From NCBI RefSeq assembly GCF_900115815.1, contig NZ_FOXV01000002.1, forward strand, positions 186,001-250,000: a stretch of DNA of 64,000 nucleotides, in the 5' to 3' direction. Position numbers and translations under genes: made by a program. The notes beneath the pieces were generated by a model that was given only the letters and a program-made list of their open reading frames with translations, searched no databases and was not told the DNA's origin. This stretch comes from Roseivivax halotolerans (GTDB lineage Bacteria > Pseudomonadota > Alphaproteobacteria > Rhodobacterales > Rhodobacteraceae). Shown piece by piece: positions 1,648 to 17,005 of the stretch. How positions within the stretch are numbered: position 1 is the first letter of the stretch; every line of letters starts with the position of its first letter.

Positions 1648-2100
1648 ATGTTCACCCGGCTTGCCGCCTTATGCCTCTCCCTGGCGGCAACTCCGCTCGC
1701 TGCCGAGGAGATCGGCGAGATCGGCGTCGACTGGGTGGGCAACGATATCATCGTCGAGGCAATCTCGGACCCCGATGTGGCAGGCGTGACCTGCCACATC
1801 GCCTATTTCGACCGAGGGCTGATCGACCGGCTGTCCAAGGGCAACTGGTTCGAGGATCCGTCGAACGCATCCATCTCCTGCCGCCAGACCGGCCCCATCG
1901 AGATCGGCGAGATCGACCGCAGCCCGAGCGGAGAGGACGTCTTCCGCACCTCGCGGTCCATCATCCTGAAATCGCTGCGCGTCAAACGCATTTGGGACGA
2001 AGCCAACCAGACCCTGGTCTACGTCGCCCACGCGGCGGAGCTGACCGATGGCTCGGCGAAAGTTGCGATCTCAACCGTGCCGCTCTACGCGCCGGAATGA
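1648..2100 (+). CDS. CreA-like exported protein
   Basis: A 150-residue protein with a clear cleavable signal peptide (MFTRLAALCLSLAATPLAAEE), so it should act in the periplasm. The mature part resembles the CreA family: IGEIGVDWVGNDIIVEAISDPDVAGVTCHI near the N-terminus and SIILKSLRVKRIWDEANQTLVYVAH near the C-terminus. Two cysteines (in VTCHI and ISCRQ) could form a disulfide. CreA proteins have no settled biochemical function. It follows the stress protein by 14 bases and may be co-transcribed with it. The gene converges on the aminotransferase at 2110 with a 9-base gap. Confidence 0.78.
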   Translation: MFTRLAALCLSLAATPLAAEEIGEIGVDWVGNDIIVEAISDPDVAGVTCHIAYFDRGLIDRLSKGNWFEDPSNASISCRQTGPIEIGEIDRSPSGEDVFRTSRSIILKSLRVKRIWDEANQTLVYVAHAAELTDGSAKVAISTVPLYAPE

Positions 2101-2109
2101 AGCGGCGGG

Positions 2110-3306
2110 TCAGGCCGCCCGATCCGCGAGCGCCTCAATCTCCTCGCGCAGGATACGCGCAATGAGGCGGCAATCCTCTTCGGAAAAAGTCAGTGGCAGA
2201 CGCAGGTCGAACAGACCCGCGAGCACCCTGTCTGTACGTGGCAGCGCCATCGGGGCCGCATAGCGCCAGTGCGCGTAGCGCGACGTGAAGGCGACGGGAT
2301 CCTCCGCGCCGAACCACTTCATCTCGACACCGCGCGCACCGGCACGCGCGACGAGCTCCGCCGCCTTCTCCGGTGGCCAGTCAAGCGCGAGAAACTGGAA
2401 GGACGACGCGACGAATCCCTCAGCGTCGGGCCGGTGCGGCAGCGATATGCCTGGCGCGCCCCAGATCCCCGCCTCGAGCGCACGGTACCGTGCGTTCCAT
2501 GCCTCGGCCCGCTCCGCCAGCCGCGAGAGCTGCGGGCGCAGGATCGCAGCGCGCAGGTTGTCCATCCGGCCCGAGACGTTCGGCACGTCGAGACGCAGCT
2601 CCTCGAAGACCTCCTTCGGCGGCGCGGCGAGATGCCGCTCATAGAGCATGTACGAGCCCGACAGGAGAATCATCCGCGCTGCGAGGTCCGCGTCGTCCGT
2701 CACCAAGAGACCCCCTTCGCCGGAATTCACGTGCTTGTAGGTCTGGGTGGAATAGCAGCCGATCGCTCCGTGCCGCCCCGAGGGCACCCCGTTCCAATGG
2801 GCCCCCATCGTGTGCGCGCAATCCTCGATGAGTGTCAAACCCTTGGCGCGGCAGAGCTCGGTCACGCGTTCCATATCGGCGATATGTCCGCGCATATGCG
2901 ACAGCATCAAGACCCGCGCATCGGCGGCCTTGACCTCGAGATCGTCAAGGTCGATGACCAGATCCTCGGTCGTCTCAACGAAAAGCGGGCGCGCGCCGAG
3001 CGCCGCGATGGCTCCGGGTACGGGCGCAAGCGTGAAGGCATTGGTCAGGACCGCATCGCCCGGCCCGACGCCTGTCGCCCGCAGCGCCGCGCCCAAACCG
3101 TAGCCGCCAGAGGCAACCGCGAGACAATAGCGCGCGCCGGTCAGGGCCGCGAAATCCTGCTCGAGAAGCGCGGTCTCGCCCAGCTCTCCCTCGGCCAGAT
3201 TGTAGCGGTGCAGCCGCCCGTGGCGAAGAACGTCGAGTGCGGCGGCGATTCCCTCTTCCGGGATCGCTTCTTGCTGGGTGAAATTGCCGTGGAAGGTCTC
3301 GCTCAT
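2110..3306 (-). CDS. DegT/DnrJ/EryC1/StrS-family PLP aminotransferase
   Basis: A 398-residue fold-type I aminotransferase of the family that aminates nucleotide-linked keto sugars. Visible features are the cofactor region GGYGLGAALRATGVGPGD, LTLIEDCAHTMGAHW with the pyridoxal-pairing Asp, and the lysine segment YKHVNSGEGG, which carries the Schiff-base lysine and the typical Gly-Glu-Gly-Gly. ATG at 3306 (MSETFHGNF) is preferred. A TTG at 3342 would overlap the preceding phosphatase stop. It lies 32 bases downstream of the phosphatase gene and is probably in the same transcript. No sugar-nucleotide cluster is nearby, so the substrate is unknown; a role in amino-sugar decoration is inference. 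Confidence 0.82.
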   Translation of the reverse strand: MSETFHGNFTQQEAIPEEGIAAALDVLRHGRLHRYNLAEGELGETALLEQDFAALTGARYCLAVASGGYGLGAALRATGVGPGDAVLTNAFTLAPVPGAIAALGARPLFVETTEDLVIDLDDLEVKAADARVLMLSHMRGHIADMERVTELCRAKGLTLIEDCAHTMGAHWNGVPSGRHGAIGCYSTQTYKHVNSGEGGLLVTDDADLAARMILLSGSYMLYERHLAAPPKEVFEELRLDVPNVSGRMDNLRAAILRPQLSRLAERAEAWNARYRALEAGIWGAPGISLPHRPDAEGFVASSFQFLALDWPPEKAAELVARAGARGVEMKWFGAEDPVAFTSRYAHWRYAAPMALPRTDRVLAGLFDLRLPLTFSEEDCRLIARILREEIEALADRAA

Positions 3307-3338
3307 GGCGCTCAGAACACGCGGAAACGCGCGCCCCG

Positions 3339-10702: not shown

Positions 10703-11605
10703 TCAAGGGCCAATATGGCGCAGGTCAATCCGGGCGGGCACGCCGTCGCGTCCTGCCTGGTCATTCCAATGGGCCCGGTTGAGAACTCCGCCATCGGCCC
10801 GGACATGAGTGATCGCGTCCACGTCAATCTCCGCGAAGGTCCAGCCGGCCGCGTCGAGCCTGCCTTCGGCCAGAACGCCCGTCGCCGGGAAGCCGGTATC
10901 GGGCGGACCGAAGACGCCGCCCGCCCCGCAATTGGTATCCACCGCCTCCGACCAGGCCGCATCGCCCACGGTCGAGGACATCACGCTCACGCATTGCGCC
11001 TCGAGCGCGCGCGCCATCGCACCGATACGGACCCGCGAATATCCGGCCCGCGCCTCGGTGCAGGAGGGCACGAGCAGGATCTCGGCCTCCGACAGCGCCC
11101 GGCCCAGAAGGGGATATTCGCTGTCATAGCAGATGAGGATGCCAATCTTGCCCAACGCGGTCTCGAAGAGCCGCAGCGGCCCGCCGCCCACGACGCCCCA
11201 ATCCTCGCGCTCGAAGCGCGTCATGATCTGCTTGTCCTGGTGCCCCGACATGCCATCGGGCGTAAAAAGCCATGCGCGGTTGACCGGGCGCTTTCCGATC
11301 TCGGTATCGAACACCGTCGCGGAAGCGCCAAGAATGTGGACCCCATGGCGAGCCGCCAGTTCGGCGTGCAGGGCATTCGCCTCGGGCATCCGGTCCGAGA
11401 CGGCGTGAAGCGACTTCTCGAGATCGCCCGCAACATCGAGCCCCGCCAACGTTGCAAGCTCCATCGCGCCGTATTCGGGAAAGACAAGCAGGTCCGCGCC
11501 CTGCCCGGCCGCGTCCGCCACCCAGGACGAGAGCTTGGCCTCGTATGCCGCCCAGTTCGGCAGGATATCGAGCGGATAGGCGGCGGCGGCGACTTTGAAT
11601 GTCAT
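10703..11605 (-). CDS. Carbon-nitrogen hydrolase (nitrilase superfamily)
   Basis: A 300-residue amidohydrolase of the nitrilase superfamily. The catalytic triad is visible: Glu in LLVFPEYGAMEL, Lys in HQDKQIMTRFE and Cys in ILICYDSEYPLLGR. The family cleaves amides or nitriles of small molecules or transfers acyl groups; the substrate cannot be read from the sequence. ATG at 11605 gives MTFKVAAAAYP. It lies 4 bases after the acetyltransferase gene in the same orientation, so it probably ends the CoA-transferase transcript. Confidence 0.83.
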   Translation of the reverse strand: MTFKVAAAAYPLDILPNWAAYEAKLSSWVADAAGQGADLLVFPEYGAMELATLAGLDVAGDLEKSLHAVSDRMPEANALHAELAARHGVHILGASATVFDTEIGKRPVNRAWLFTPDGMSGHQDKQIMTRFEREDWGVVGGGPLRLFETALGKIGILICYDSEYPLLGRALSEAEILLVPSCTEARAGYSRVRIGAMARALEAQCVSVMSSTVGDAAWSEAVDTNCGAGGVFGPPDTGFPATGVLAEGRLDAAGWTFAEIDVDAITHVRADGGVLNRAHWNDQAGRDGVPARIDLRHIGP

Positions 11606-11609
11606 TTCG

Positions 11610-11903
11610 TCAGACCTGGAAGGCGTCCGCCCAGTCGGGATGGCGGCGACGCTGCGCGTTCACGAACGGACAAAGCGGCACGATCTTCACGCCCTCGGCG
11701 CGCGCATCCTCGACGAGCCGTTCGACCAGCGCCTGCCCTGCCCCGGTCCCGCGCATCGCGTCCGGCACCCCCGTGTGGTCGGCGATGATGAGCGTTGGCG
11801 AGGAGATCGAATAGGTCAGCTCCGCCTCCGCGCCGTTCCGGCGGATCACGTAGCGGCCGCGGCTGCCCTCGACCTCGCGGGTGATGTCGAACTCAGTTGA
11901 CAA
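11610..11903 (-). CDS. Small GNAT-like N-acetyltransferase (COG2388/YjdJ type)
   Basis: A protein of about 97 residues with the compact GNAT fold seen in COG2388: [40 protein letters not shown] and the acetyl-CoA loop region [22 protein letters not shown], then [11 protein letters not shown] near the end. The family start most likely is TTG at 11903, which overlaps the scoB stop by 11 bases; an ATG at 11948 would add an unrelated extension. Its target is unknown. It follows scoB in the same transcript. Confidence 0.75.
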
Positions 11904-12522
11904 TGGTGGCTTCGGTCGCGGCGCGGATATCGTCCTCGCTGACACCATCCGCGGTCTCGACGATCTTCAGCCCGCCCTCGACCACGTCCAGAACACCAAG
12001 ATTGGTGATGACGCGATTGACGACGCCGGTACCGGTGAGCGGCAGCGTGCATTCCTTCAGCAGCTTGGACTCGCCGGCCTTGTTCTGGTGATCCATCACC
12101 ACGACGACCCGCTGCACTCCCGCAACGAGGTCCATCGCGCCGCCCATGCCCTTCACGAGCTTGCCCGGGATCATCCAGTTCGCGAGATCGCCGTTCTCGG
12201 CGACTTCCATCGCGCCCAGGATCGCCATCGCGATCTTGCCGCCCCGGATCATGCCGAAGGAGGTCGCGCTGTCGAAATAGGAGGTGTGCGGCAGCTCGGT
12301 GATCGTCTGCTTGCCGGCGTTGATAAGGTCGGGATCGGCTTCTCCCTCAACCGGGAAAGGCCCCATTCCGAGCATGCCGTTCTCCGATTGCAGGGTGACG
12401 TTCACGCCTTCGGGGATGTAATTCGGCACGAGCGTCGGGATGCCGATGCCGAGATTGACATAGGTGCCGTCTTCCAGCTCCTGCGCGGCGCGGGCCGCCA
12501 TCTGCTCACGATCCCAAGGCAT
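11893..12522 (-). CDS. scoB: 3-oxoacid CoA-transferase subunit B
   Basis: A 209-residue beta subunit of a family I CoA-transferase (succinyl-CoA:3-ketoacid type). It has [18 protein letters not shown] and the [12 protein letters not shown] segment whose Glu (E47) is the residue that forms the glutamyl-CoA intermediate. Together with ScoA it moves CoA between succinyl-CoA and acetoacetate, allowing use of acetoacetate or ketone bodies. ATG at 12522 begins [19 protein letters not shown], the typical N-terminus. It is separated from its partner subunit gene by the LOV gene, with 3 bases between LOV stop and scoB start. Confidence 0.92.
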
Positions 12523-12525
12523 GTG

Positions 12526-13587
12526 TCACTTTCCTTCCTGAAGCGTATCGTAGGGGTCCATCGGCACGTCGATCATGACGATCGTTCCGGCCGCGCCCCG
12601 CACGACGTTGATGGTTGCATCGAGGCCGTCCAAGAGGGACGAAATCAGCCGTCCGCCCACCGTCGTCGTCGAGGGCCAGTTGATATTCTGCGGGATGCCG
12701 ACGCCGTCATCGGCGATCAGGAACCGCAAGCCGCCCGCCGCAAGCTGCGTCGCCCGGAGCTCGATATACCCGCTGTCGAGCCCGTCGAAGGCATGGCTGA
12801 ACGCGTTCGAGAGCGCCTCGGAGAGAACGAGGCTCAGCCGCACGGAAGCATCGAGGCTCACGTGCAATCTCTCGAGTTGTTGGGAAAACCGGATGCCGGG
12901 GCGACTTTCGTTATAGGTCACGTTCGCGGCGACCCGCGTCATCAGCGAGCCGAAATCGATCTGGCTGTCACCGCCCGACAATTCGGACGCCTGAAGCTCC
13001 TCGTAGACGAGTTGCAGGCAGTCGAGCCGGCGCGGCAAGGCCTCGATCTCGTGCACCGGGTCGACCTGGCTACGGCCCGGATTGGGATGCGAGATCGACG
13101 CGAGTATCAGAGACAGGTCTTCCTGAACGCGCGAGCGGATCACCTCGAAGGACCGGTCCAGATGCTCGTGCGAATGCGCGGGATCGCGCAGCTCTTTCTG
13201 AAGACCGAGGAAATAGAGCGGCTTGCCATCATCATTGGTGATCGGCGCGATCACCAGACGGTTCGTGAAAGGCTCTCCGGACGCGCGGTAGTTCAGAATG
13301 TCGACCGACACGTCACGACCATTCTCCACGGCGGCCCGGACCCGATCCACGTCTTCCTTGCGGGTGCGTTGACCCTGCAGGAAGCGGCAGTTCCGCCCGA
13401 TCACCGAAGAACGGTTGTAGCCCGTGACACGCTCGAACGCCTCGTTCACGTAAACGATCGGATTGTCGGGCGCATTGGGGTTGGTGATGACCATTGCGAC
13501 CGAAAGGCGCGCGAATCCCGCCAGGGCGGCCCTGTCGTCCAGAACCGCGCTGAGGTTGCGAGACGTGGTCTGGGCCCCGCTCACCAA
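12526..13587 (-). CDS. LOV-domain photoreceptor with degenerate histidine-kinase module
   Basis: A 353-residue soluble protein. Residues about 25-135 form a LOV domain: GRNCRFLQG holds the photoactive Cys67, and flavin-contact residues N99, N109 (NYRASGEPFTN) and Q130 (FLGLQ) are present, so blue-light adduct formation is expected. A HisKA_2/HWE-like helical region follows, but the motif usually reading HRVKNNL here reads SRVQEDL, with Ser152 at the phospho-acceptor position. The C-terminal ATPase keeps an N-box (SEALSNAFSHAF) and DDGVGIP, while the G2 box is altered (TVGGRL). No transmembrane segment. Start is TTG 13587 or GTG 13584, 1-4 bases after the scoA stop. It lies between the two CoA-transferase subunit genes. 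Confidence 0.85.
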   Translation of the reverse strand: MVSGAQTTSRNLSAVLDDRAALAGFARLSVAMVITNPNAPDNPIVYVNEAFERVTGYNRSSVIGRNCRFLQGQRTRKEDVDRVRAAVENGRDVSVDILNYRASGEPFTNRLVIAPITNDDGKPLYFLGLQKELRDPAHSHEHLDRSFEVIRSRVQEDLSLILASISHPNPGRSQVDPVHEIEALPRRLDCLQLVYEELQASELSGGDSQIDFGSLMTRVAANVTYNESRPGIRFSQQLERLHVSLDASVRLSLVLSEALSNAFSHAFDGLDSGYIELRATQLAAGGLRFLIADDGVGIPQNINWPSTTTVGGRLISSLLDGLDATINVVRGAAGTIVMIDVPMDPYDTLQEGK

Positions 13588-13588
13588 A

Positions 13589-14287
13589 TCAGGCTGCCGA
13601 CCGCGTGGTCAGCTTCTCGATGCGCTTTTCATGCTCGCCCTGGATGATGCGATGCACGTAGACGCCCGGCAGATGGATGTGATCGGGGTCGAGTTCGCCC
13701 GGCTCGACGATCTCTTCGACCTCCATGACGCAGACCTTGCCGCACATGGCCGCCGGCGGATTGAAATTGCGCGCGGTCTTGCGAAAAATACAATTGCCGG
13801 TCGTGTCGGCCTTCCACGCCTTCACGATAGACAGATCGGCGAAGATCCCACGCTCGAGAATGTAGGTCTCGCCGTCGAATTCCTTGTGTTCCTTGCCCTC
13901 GGCGATCTGGGTGCCGACACCGGTCTTGGTGTAGAAACCCGGAATACCCGCGCCGCCGGCGCGCATCCGCTCGGCGAGCGTGCCTTGCGGGTTGAATTCG
14001 AGCTCGAGTTCCTCGGAGAGATACTGGCGCATGAATTCGGCATTCTCGCCAACATAGGACGACATCATCTTTCTGACCTGCTTGGTCTGCAAAAGGATGC
14101 CGATGCCGAAATCGTCAACGCCCGCATTGTTCGAGGCGAAGGTCAGATCCTTCACGCCCGCATCGCGGATCGCCGAGAGAAGCAGCTCGGGAATGCCGCA
14201 GAGACCGAACCCGCCGGCCGCGATCAGCATGCCGTCATGCAATAGCCCATCAAGCGCTTCCGCCGCGGATCCGTAGATTTTCTGCAT
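13589..14287 (-). CDS. scoA: 3-oxoacid CoA-transferase subunit A
   Basis: A 232-residue alpha subunit of the same CoA-transferase. Visible are the CoA-binding loop IAAGGFGLCGIPELLLSAIRDAG, FASNNAGVDDFGIG, the GGAGIPGFYTKTGVGT segment and the C-terminal CVMEVEEIVEPGELDPDHIHLPG. ATG at 14287 (MQKIYGSA) is preferred because GGAGGG lies about 10 bases upstream; ATG at 14296 is too close to that ribosome site. It heads the run scoA-LOV-scoB-acetyltransferase-hydrolase. Confidence 0.92.
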   Translation of the reverse strand: MQKIYGSAAEALDGLLHDGMLIAAGGFGLCGIPELLLSAIRDAGVKDLTFASNNAGVDDFGIGILLQTKQVRKMMSSYVGENAEFMRQYLSEELELEFNPQGTLAERMRAGGAGIPGFYTKTGVGTQIAEGKEHKEFDGETYILERGIFADLSIVKAWKADTTGNCIFRKTARNFNPPAAMCGKVCVMEVEEIVEPGELDPDHIHLPGVYVHRIIQGEHEKRIEKLTTRSAA

Positions 14288-14407
14288 CTCTGTCATCCCT
14301 CCGAGCCGTGTTGTGTGGGAGTCTTGGCGCTCCACCGAAAGAGAGTCAATGCGAGCAGGCCCGCCGCCGCTCGGCGGACGCGCGCTGCATTATGGAATGC
14401 TGTGAAC

Positions 14408-14425
14408 CCCCGGCCATGACCGGGG
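14408..14425 (-). terminator. Hairpin downstream of topA
   Basis: CCCCGG-CCATGA-CCGGGG forms a perfect 6-bp stem 9 bases beyond the topA stop. There is no T tract, so it is at best a weak terminator or an mRNA 3' stabiliser. Confidence 0.4.
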
Positions 14426-14434
14426 ACATGAGCA

Positions 14435-17005
<2,571 letters not shown>

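Follow-up and report, generated by a model that had tools for sequence, protein, structure and literature searches.

A probable LdaP-type LOV protein gene carried between the CoA-transferase genes scoA and scoB of Roseivivax halotolerans

Roseivivax halotolerans (Rhodobacteraceae) carries a gene for a LOV protein between scoA and scoB, which encode the two subunits of a 3-oxoacid (succinyl-CoA:3-ketoacid) CoA-transferase. The genes lie in a stretch of 64,000 nucleotides of its genome (NCBI RefSeq assembly GCF_900115815.1, contig NZ_FOXV01000002.1, positions 186,001 to 250,000), referred to as the window in the following. The LOV gene is probably the ldaP of this Roseivivax-type phototroph: its product falls into one clade with an open reading frame (ORF) identified as LdaP, the LOV antirepressor of PpsR. 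A sequence-only reading of this DNA had already placed the LOV gene between the two subunit genes, which we confirm (minus strand; a gap of one base to scoA at 13588 and of three bases to scoB at 12523–12525). It also knew of no described function for such an arrangement; for the protein, LdaP now supplies one, but not for the arrangement.

LdaP is known from Dinoroseobacter shibae, where a pigment screen turned up the LOV protein Dshi_1135, which then received this name (PMC10890935). According to the available text of that report, it acts as an antirepressor on PpsR, which represses photosynthesis genes, and is needed for the expression of these genes; it photocycles, for which C61 is essential, does not autophosphorylate, shows no Phos-tag shift and contacts PpsR (PMC10890935). 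The colourless ldaP mutant was complemented in trans (PMC10890935), and the phenotype therefore does not stem from polarity on scoB. In the LdaP pull-down, the eluate held 260 proteins and 15 were called enriched, including PpsR and RNA polymerase subunits; the table, which shows enriched proteins only, lists neither ScoA nor ScoB, nor a response regulator (PMC10890935). The same source provides four numbers for recognizing the protein, namely a length of 338 amino acids (aa), the motif GRNCRFLQ at residues 58–65, C61, and R148 at the place of the phosphoacceptor, which is H142 in the kinase EL346 (PMC10890935). The terms Dshi_1134, Dshi_1136 and ketoacid do not occur in its available text (PMC10890935).

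All four numbers are found in an ORF of genome G035 (locus L007), which is flanked by scoA and scoB, has topA upstream of the block and is inferred to be LdaP. Over 335 columns, this ORF and the window protein share 51% identity, and both belong to a single 20-row clade, supported by values of 99/98 (rough bootstraps according to the program's own warning) and separate from the kinases with an intact phosphoacceptor. This tree was calculated with the H-box columns excluded and with L036 and L037 (from the same genomes as L119 and L118), L042, L043 and L123–L125 left out. Beyond shared descent, the two proteins have the same domain order, the cysteine of the GRNCRFLQ motif, a lost phosphoacceptor, an aspartate five residues past it and the nesting between scoA and scoB, and each genome contains PpsR and reaction-centre genes. 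They differ at the phosphoacceptor position, where the window protein has Ser and LdaP has Arg, and the window gene has a TTG or GTG start one base past scoA.

On the residue level, the sensor and the ATP-binding site of the clade are conserved, while the phosphoacceptor is not. The position of Cys67 is a cysteine in 20/20 clade members. At the phosphoacceptor position, these members have S, N, R, A, D, E or G, seven different residues, and histidine in none of the 20. The lysine and asparagine of the HRVKN motif are replaced as well, so that the H-box, HRVKNHL in the active kinase EL346, reads SRVQEDL in the window protein. Asp157 behaves in the opposite manner: its position is Asp in 20/20 clade members versus His in 23/23 compared rows with an intact phosphoacceptor, and it is the sole column with a strict switch in the comparison of the clade with the kinases (L025 and L021 left out). 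Among distant intact kinases outside these 23 rows, L042 and L123–L125 have His at this position and L043 has Asn, so His is not invariant there. In the GHKL ATPase domain, the window protein retains the ATP-binding residues N261, D293, D294, G295 and G297; in the clade, the N-box Asn is present in 19 of 20 members and both G1 aspartates in all of them. These 20-row counts include L025, whereas L021 is shown apart. The latter, from genome G058, represents a separate loss of the phosphoacceptor, with Ser at this place and His at the second. G058, a phototroph, has a second EL346-like gene besides L021 on another contig (L174). That a subgroup of these proteins has no phosphoacceptor was already noted by Dikiy et al. 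2023 (PMC10359499), whose available text mentions neither the fixed Asp nor the gene context. The ratio of nonsynonymous to synonymous substitution rates (dN/dS) is about 0.13–0.33 in five close pairs (NG86). Given this ratio and the conserved residues, the protein is under purifying selection, with the sensor and the ATP site kept and the usual acceptor lost.

The AlphaFold2 model of the window protein, built with 31 aligned members, has a mean predicted local distance difference test score (pLDDT) of 82.9 and a predicted template-modelling score (pTM) of 0.77, with low confidence around residues 150–156. EL346 of Erythrobacter litoralis (4r3a) is both its top match in Foldseek (E 1.6e-31, TM score 0.74 by query length, root-mean-square deviation 5.1) and the closest solved structure by sequence (E 1.1e-69). 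The two proteins share the succession of LOV, DHp-like and ATPase domains, but EL346 is an active kinase that has kept H142, where the window protein has Ser152 and, further on, Asp157. In description, the window protein also resembles RT-HK (RT349) of Rubellimicrobium thermophilum, a member of the LOV kinase family reported to be on in the dark and off in the light, which differs in that it autophosphorylates on His and passes the phosphate to a PhyR (PMC12148442, available text). With AppA, LdaP shares the function as a blue-light antirepressor of PpsR, but AppA is an unrelated protein with a BLUF/FAD sensor (PMC10890935).

It seems very unlikely that the window protein is still a signalling kinase that phosphorylates a regulator such as PhyR, either via another residue or in trans with a second LOV kinase. 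The retained ATP-binding residues would allow for this, and the genome also has two PhyR-type matches and, on another contig, such a second LOV kinase (L002, 37%), whose H-box is intact. However, the H, K and N of the HRVKN motif are all replaced in the clade, and LdaP, in the available text, is described without autophosphorylation, without a Phos-tag shift and without a response regulator in the pull-down (PMC10890935).

The assignment to LdaP is further supported by the link to photosynthesis. In this genome, PpsR is represented by a match to TIGR02040 (E 1.8e-126) and the reaction centre by two matches to PF00124, and a distance of about 7 kb separates ppsR from the latter on contig C32. 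The 60-kb stretch around these genes contains 14 TGT-N12-ACA sites, with clusters among them, versus 3.6 expected, and the window 7 versus 3.8 expected, with expectations taken from 30 first-order Markov simulations per stretch. Counting one genome per genus, reaction-centre genes are found in 13/13 genera with the histidine-less form but in 3/13 genera in which the gene at the same locus is of the intact form (Fisher test, 1e-4), and PpsR in 12/13 versus 4/13 (Fisher test, 0.0036); the test ignores kinship. The family baseline for reaction-centre genes is 119/290.

Several observations weigh against this reading. The tree contains only two losses of the histidine, and a pair test relating this loss to PpsR or puf therefore rests on one or two independent contrasts, too few for significance once relatedness is counted. 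When all rows are considered, puf is present with 6/16 intact kinases. In genomes G065, G284 and G286, intact kinases encoded outside the sco locus occur together with PpsR and reaction-centre genes, so phototrophy does not need the loss of the histidine. Conversely, the genus member G300 (L121, L181; 99% complete) has a histidine-less gene and PpsR but no reaction-centre genes, perhaps because phototrophy was lost recently or PpsR has taken on another role, and the histidine-less G264 (77% complete) has no PpsR match. G159 (89% complete), with the intact form, has PpsR and no reaction-centre match. Within the clade, L025 (G230), although located in the sco junction, no longer has the N-box Asn and contains an insertion in the G1 region, while the LOV cysteine and the fixed Asp are kept. 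The dN/dS values are single-method estimates, and the equation of the L007 ORF with Dshi_1135 is a deduction from published numbers. The raw PpsR peptide counts in white light, blue light and darkness are 7, 7 and 1, i.e. higher in the light, and the argument for binding in the dark is based on bait normalisation and a western blot (PMC10890935, available text), which qualifies the dark-on model. Finally, the function has been demonstrated for the D. shibae protein and is extended to the window protein by analogy.

Three related ideas were considered and rejected. Mutual exclusion with BLUF proteins is not observed, as these are present in 8/13 histidine-less genera versus 12/19 phototrophic genera that were picked by hand from the 119, in a count that does not distinguish AppA from other BLUF proteins; in the Roseivivax halotolerans genome, no BLUF match was found. 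That a loss of PhyR lies behind the loss of the histidine finds no support, since PhyR-type matches are found in 176/290 genomes, this one included. Feedback of PpsR on the sco block was dismissed, because the gap between topA and scoA (14288..14434) contains no TGT-N12-ACA site and the count in the window is the one given above. A match to this motif at 11885–11902, in the overlap of scoB with the downstream GNAT gene, resembles the sites of the photosynthesis cluster and may be a chance occurrence.

The gene order is not peculiar to this genome, whereas the sequence-only reading had named an order unique to it as an outcome that would refute the idea. The order scoA-LOV-scoB is present in all nine sampled genomes of the genus, with an open LOV frame in 9/9. 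Outside the genus, at least 19 of 294 genera in the family share it (one genome per genus), a lower bound because inspection was confined to the 29 best loci there. In G159, the contig ends after scoA and the LOV gene, and this locus was counted apart from the 19; Mesobaculum littorinae and Kandeliimicrobium roseum also have the full order. In 28 of 30 distinct full loci, the closest candidate for the LOV start is at most 39 bases from the scoA stop, although these starts were picked by nearness and are thus biased toward short gaps; in 27 of the 30, the LOV stop lies at most 26 bases from the scoB start. Beyond the family, a search of 288 further genomes sampled from the class, which include at least three of the same family after all, gave no match to the LOV protein with E <= 1e-45. 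In the titles and abstracts of the open-licence literature searched, we found no description of a LOV gene nested with CoA-transferase genes; nor did we find, in the open-licence literature, one of the fixed aspartate of the LdaP clade.

The junction between scoA and scoB is variable across the family. Matches to scoA were obtained in 259/290 genomes and to scoB in 257/290, and distances were measured in 90 pairs, the genera common to the 149 scoA and 146 scoB rows listed. The two genes are at most 100 bases apart in 60 of these pairs and 1051–1372 bases apart, with a LOV gene between them, in 16, including the window locus; the remaining gaps measure 191–528 bases in seven pairs, 928 in one and 1869–3308 in six. 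Other junctions contain a GSCFA protein (L167, PF08885), a TOD1/MUCI70-like glycosyltransferase (L163) or a family 9 glycosidase (L169). Since topA lies just upstream of scoA in 14/20 LOV-free loci, despite short flanks, topA-scoA-scoB is a common order that received the inserts. On a weakly resolved scoAB tree of 60 rows, from which duplicates and loci with cut sco genes were omitted, the 30 LOV-bearing loci are intermixed with LOV-free ones (17 changes), which fits many losses, many gains or an exchange of the middle gene via its conserved flanks. The LOV gene of G187, G177 and Pseudoroseicyclus aestuarii lies near topA without a sco gene in the surrounding 9–14 kb, and in G177, scoA and scoB are adjacent at another place, away from the LOV gene. 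As each occurs without the other, the LOV gene and scoAB are not required neighbours.

Inserts of about 1.9–2.1 kb were seen in the junction of five genera (L164–L168, from G072, G213, G087, G239 and G020), among them L167 with its GSCFA protein; the junction ORFs of L164–L166, 262–275 aa long, are without a Pfam match. Smaller ORFs of 78–82 aa in the junctions of two genera, L158 (1709–1957) and L159 (1610–1846), are similar by eye. Of three small junction ORFs compared with Pfam, two had no match and that of L158 one match far under the cut-off.

At the locus itself, the minus strand carries topA, scoA, the LOV gene, scoB, a small GNAT gene and a carbon-nitrogen hydrolase gene in this order (Table 1). 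Both sco products exceed the curated cut-offs of their subunit models (TIGR02429, 229.6 bits versus 128.5; TIGR02428, 331.5 bits versus 243.55) and are on this basis predicted to form a 3-oxoacid CoA-transferase. The scoA frame is open from a GTG at 14335 to the stop at 13589, and its start is likely the ATG at 14287, ten bases past a CGGAGG, with an ATG at 14296 as alternative. The LOV ORF starts with TTG at 13587 or, in the same frame, GTG at 13584, and the scoB ORF with ATG at 12522. No sigma-70-like promoter was found inside the gap between topA and scoA; the two matches of the region fall elsewhere. Ribosome-binding duplex energies are −10.0 for scoA, −6.5 for scoB and −3.3 for the LOV start, and the purine-rich scoB site overlapping the end of the LOV gene is seen in other genus members, too. 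The layout suggests that scoA, the LOV gene and scoB are likely co-transcribed and co-translated.

Table 1. Positions in the window of the scoA-LOV-scoB block, its neighbours and the annotated parts of the LOV gene
Feature	Position	Strand	Basis
topA	ORF end at 14435	-	ORF
Gap between topA and scoA, presumed promoter region of the block	14288..14434	.	Candidate
scoA, 3-oxoacid (succinyl-CoA:3-ketoacid) CoA-transferase subunit A	13589..14287	-	TIGR02429; PF01144 E 6e-75
ldaP-type gene, LOV + DHp-like + GHKL ATPase protein, 353 aa	12526..13587	-	Pfam, tree, fold
LOV (PAS) domain, residues 30-132	13192..13500	-	PF13426 E 1.1e-19; GRNCRFLQG motif
Codon of the photoactive cysteine, Cys67	13387..13389	-	Matches C61 of LdaP
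Ser152, phosphoacceptor-histidine position (H142 of EL346, R148 of LdaP)	13132..13134	-	Alignment
Asp157, five residues past the lost phosphoacceptor	13117..13119	-	Clade alignment
GHKL ATPase domain, best-matched part, residues 238-306	12670..12876	-	PF13581 E 6.7e-8
AGGAAGG, scoB ribosome-binding site, within the LOV ORF end	12533..12539	-	Sequence; duplex energy
scoB, 3-oxoacid CoA-transferase subunit B	11893..12522	-	TIGR02428 above cut-off
GNAT gene, overlapping scoB	11610-11948	-	ORF
Carbon-nitrogen hydrolase	10703-11605	-	ORF

The tight gaps, the recurrence of the order within and beyond the genus and the position of the scoB ribosome-binding site inside the LOV gene could all be taken to mean that the LOV protein contacts ScoA or ScoB or is produced in concert with them, with light thereby tuning the use of acetoacetate or ketones. 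We consider this highly improbable, given that the LOV gene and scoAB are separable, that unrelated genes share the junction and that the pull-down table lists PpsR and not the CoA-transferase (PMC10890935, available text). The majority of measured pairs, 60 of 90, do without a LOV gene, three genomes have the LOV gene near topA without sco genes, and a ribosome-binding site weaker than those of scoA and scoB argues against equal dosage. The proposals of the sequence-only reading that light tunes the enzyme or that the LOV protein touches it directly are thus not borne out, as the window protein is close to LdaP, whose reported partner is PpsR.

There is equally little to recommend the notion that the LOV gene is a decaying passenger without a present role, a relic of stepwise kinase loss in an insertion-tolerant junction: the lost phosphoacceptor, the additional loss of the N-box Asn in L025, the unrelated genes in other junctions and the weak start and ribosome-binding site would agree with it, but not the low dN/dS, the invariant LOV cysteine and Asp157, the nearly invariant ATP-site Asn, the open frame in every sampled genus member or the need for LdaP in D. 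shibae pigmentation (PMC10890935, available text).

For an LdaP-type protein, the following mechanism can be proposed. In the dark, the window LOV protein would bind PpsR and thereby lift the repression of the photosynthesis cluster; in blue light, a cysteine-flavin adduct would form and end this antirepression. The nesting in the sco block would provide the LOV gene with the sco transcript and with weak, coupled translation, and because of its TTG or GTG start and poor ribosome-binding site, the gene may encode a low-dose regulator translated by coupling. The arrangement is explicable without any action on the CoA-transferase. A more far-reaching idea, which we regard as unlikely, is that the sco block acts as a metabolic dosing device, in which the use of storage carbon or ketones sets the amount of antirepressor and light its activity, with LdaP being a former histidine kinase that now serves as a switch, binding ATP without phosphorylating, and Asp157 its fixed new part.

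With this, an unexplained gene order is tied to a named, testable function, and the scoA-scoB junction emerges as a site where regulators and unrelated genes settle within a conserved metabolic pair. The phosphoacceptor seems to have been lost at least twice in a light-sensing kinase, both times in genomes with photosynthesis genes and with the ATP site kept, and the fixation of Asp157 in the larger clade names a candidate residue for mutation. Aerobic anoxygenic photosynthesis may be under the control of an LdaP-type LOV protein in Roseivivax and eleven further sampled genera, as well as in one genus that lost the histidine separately.

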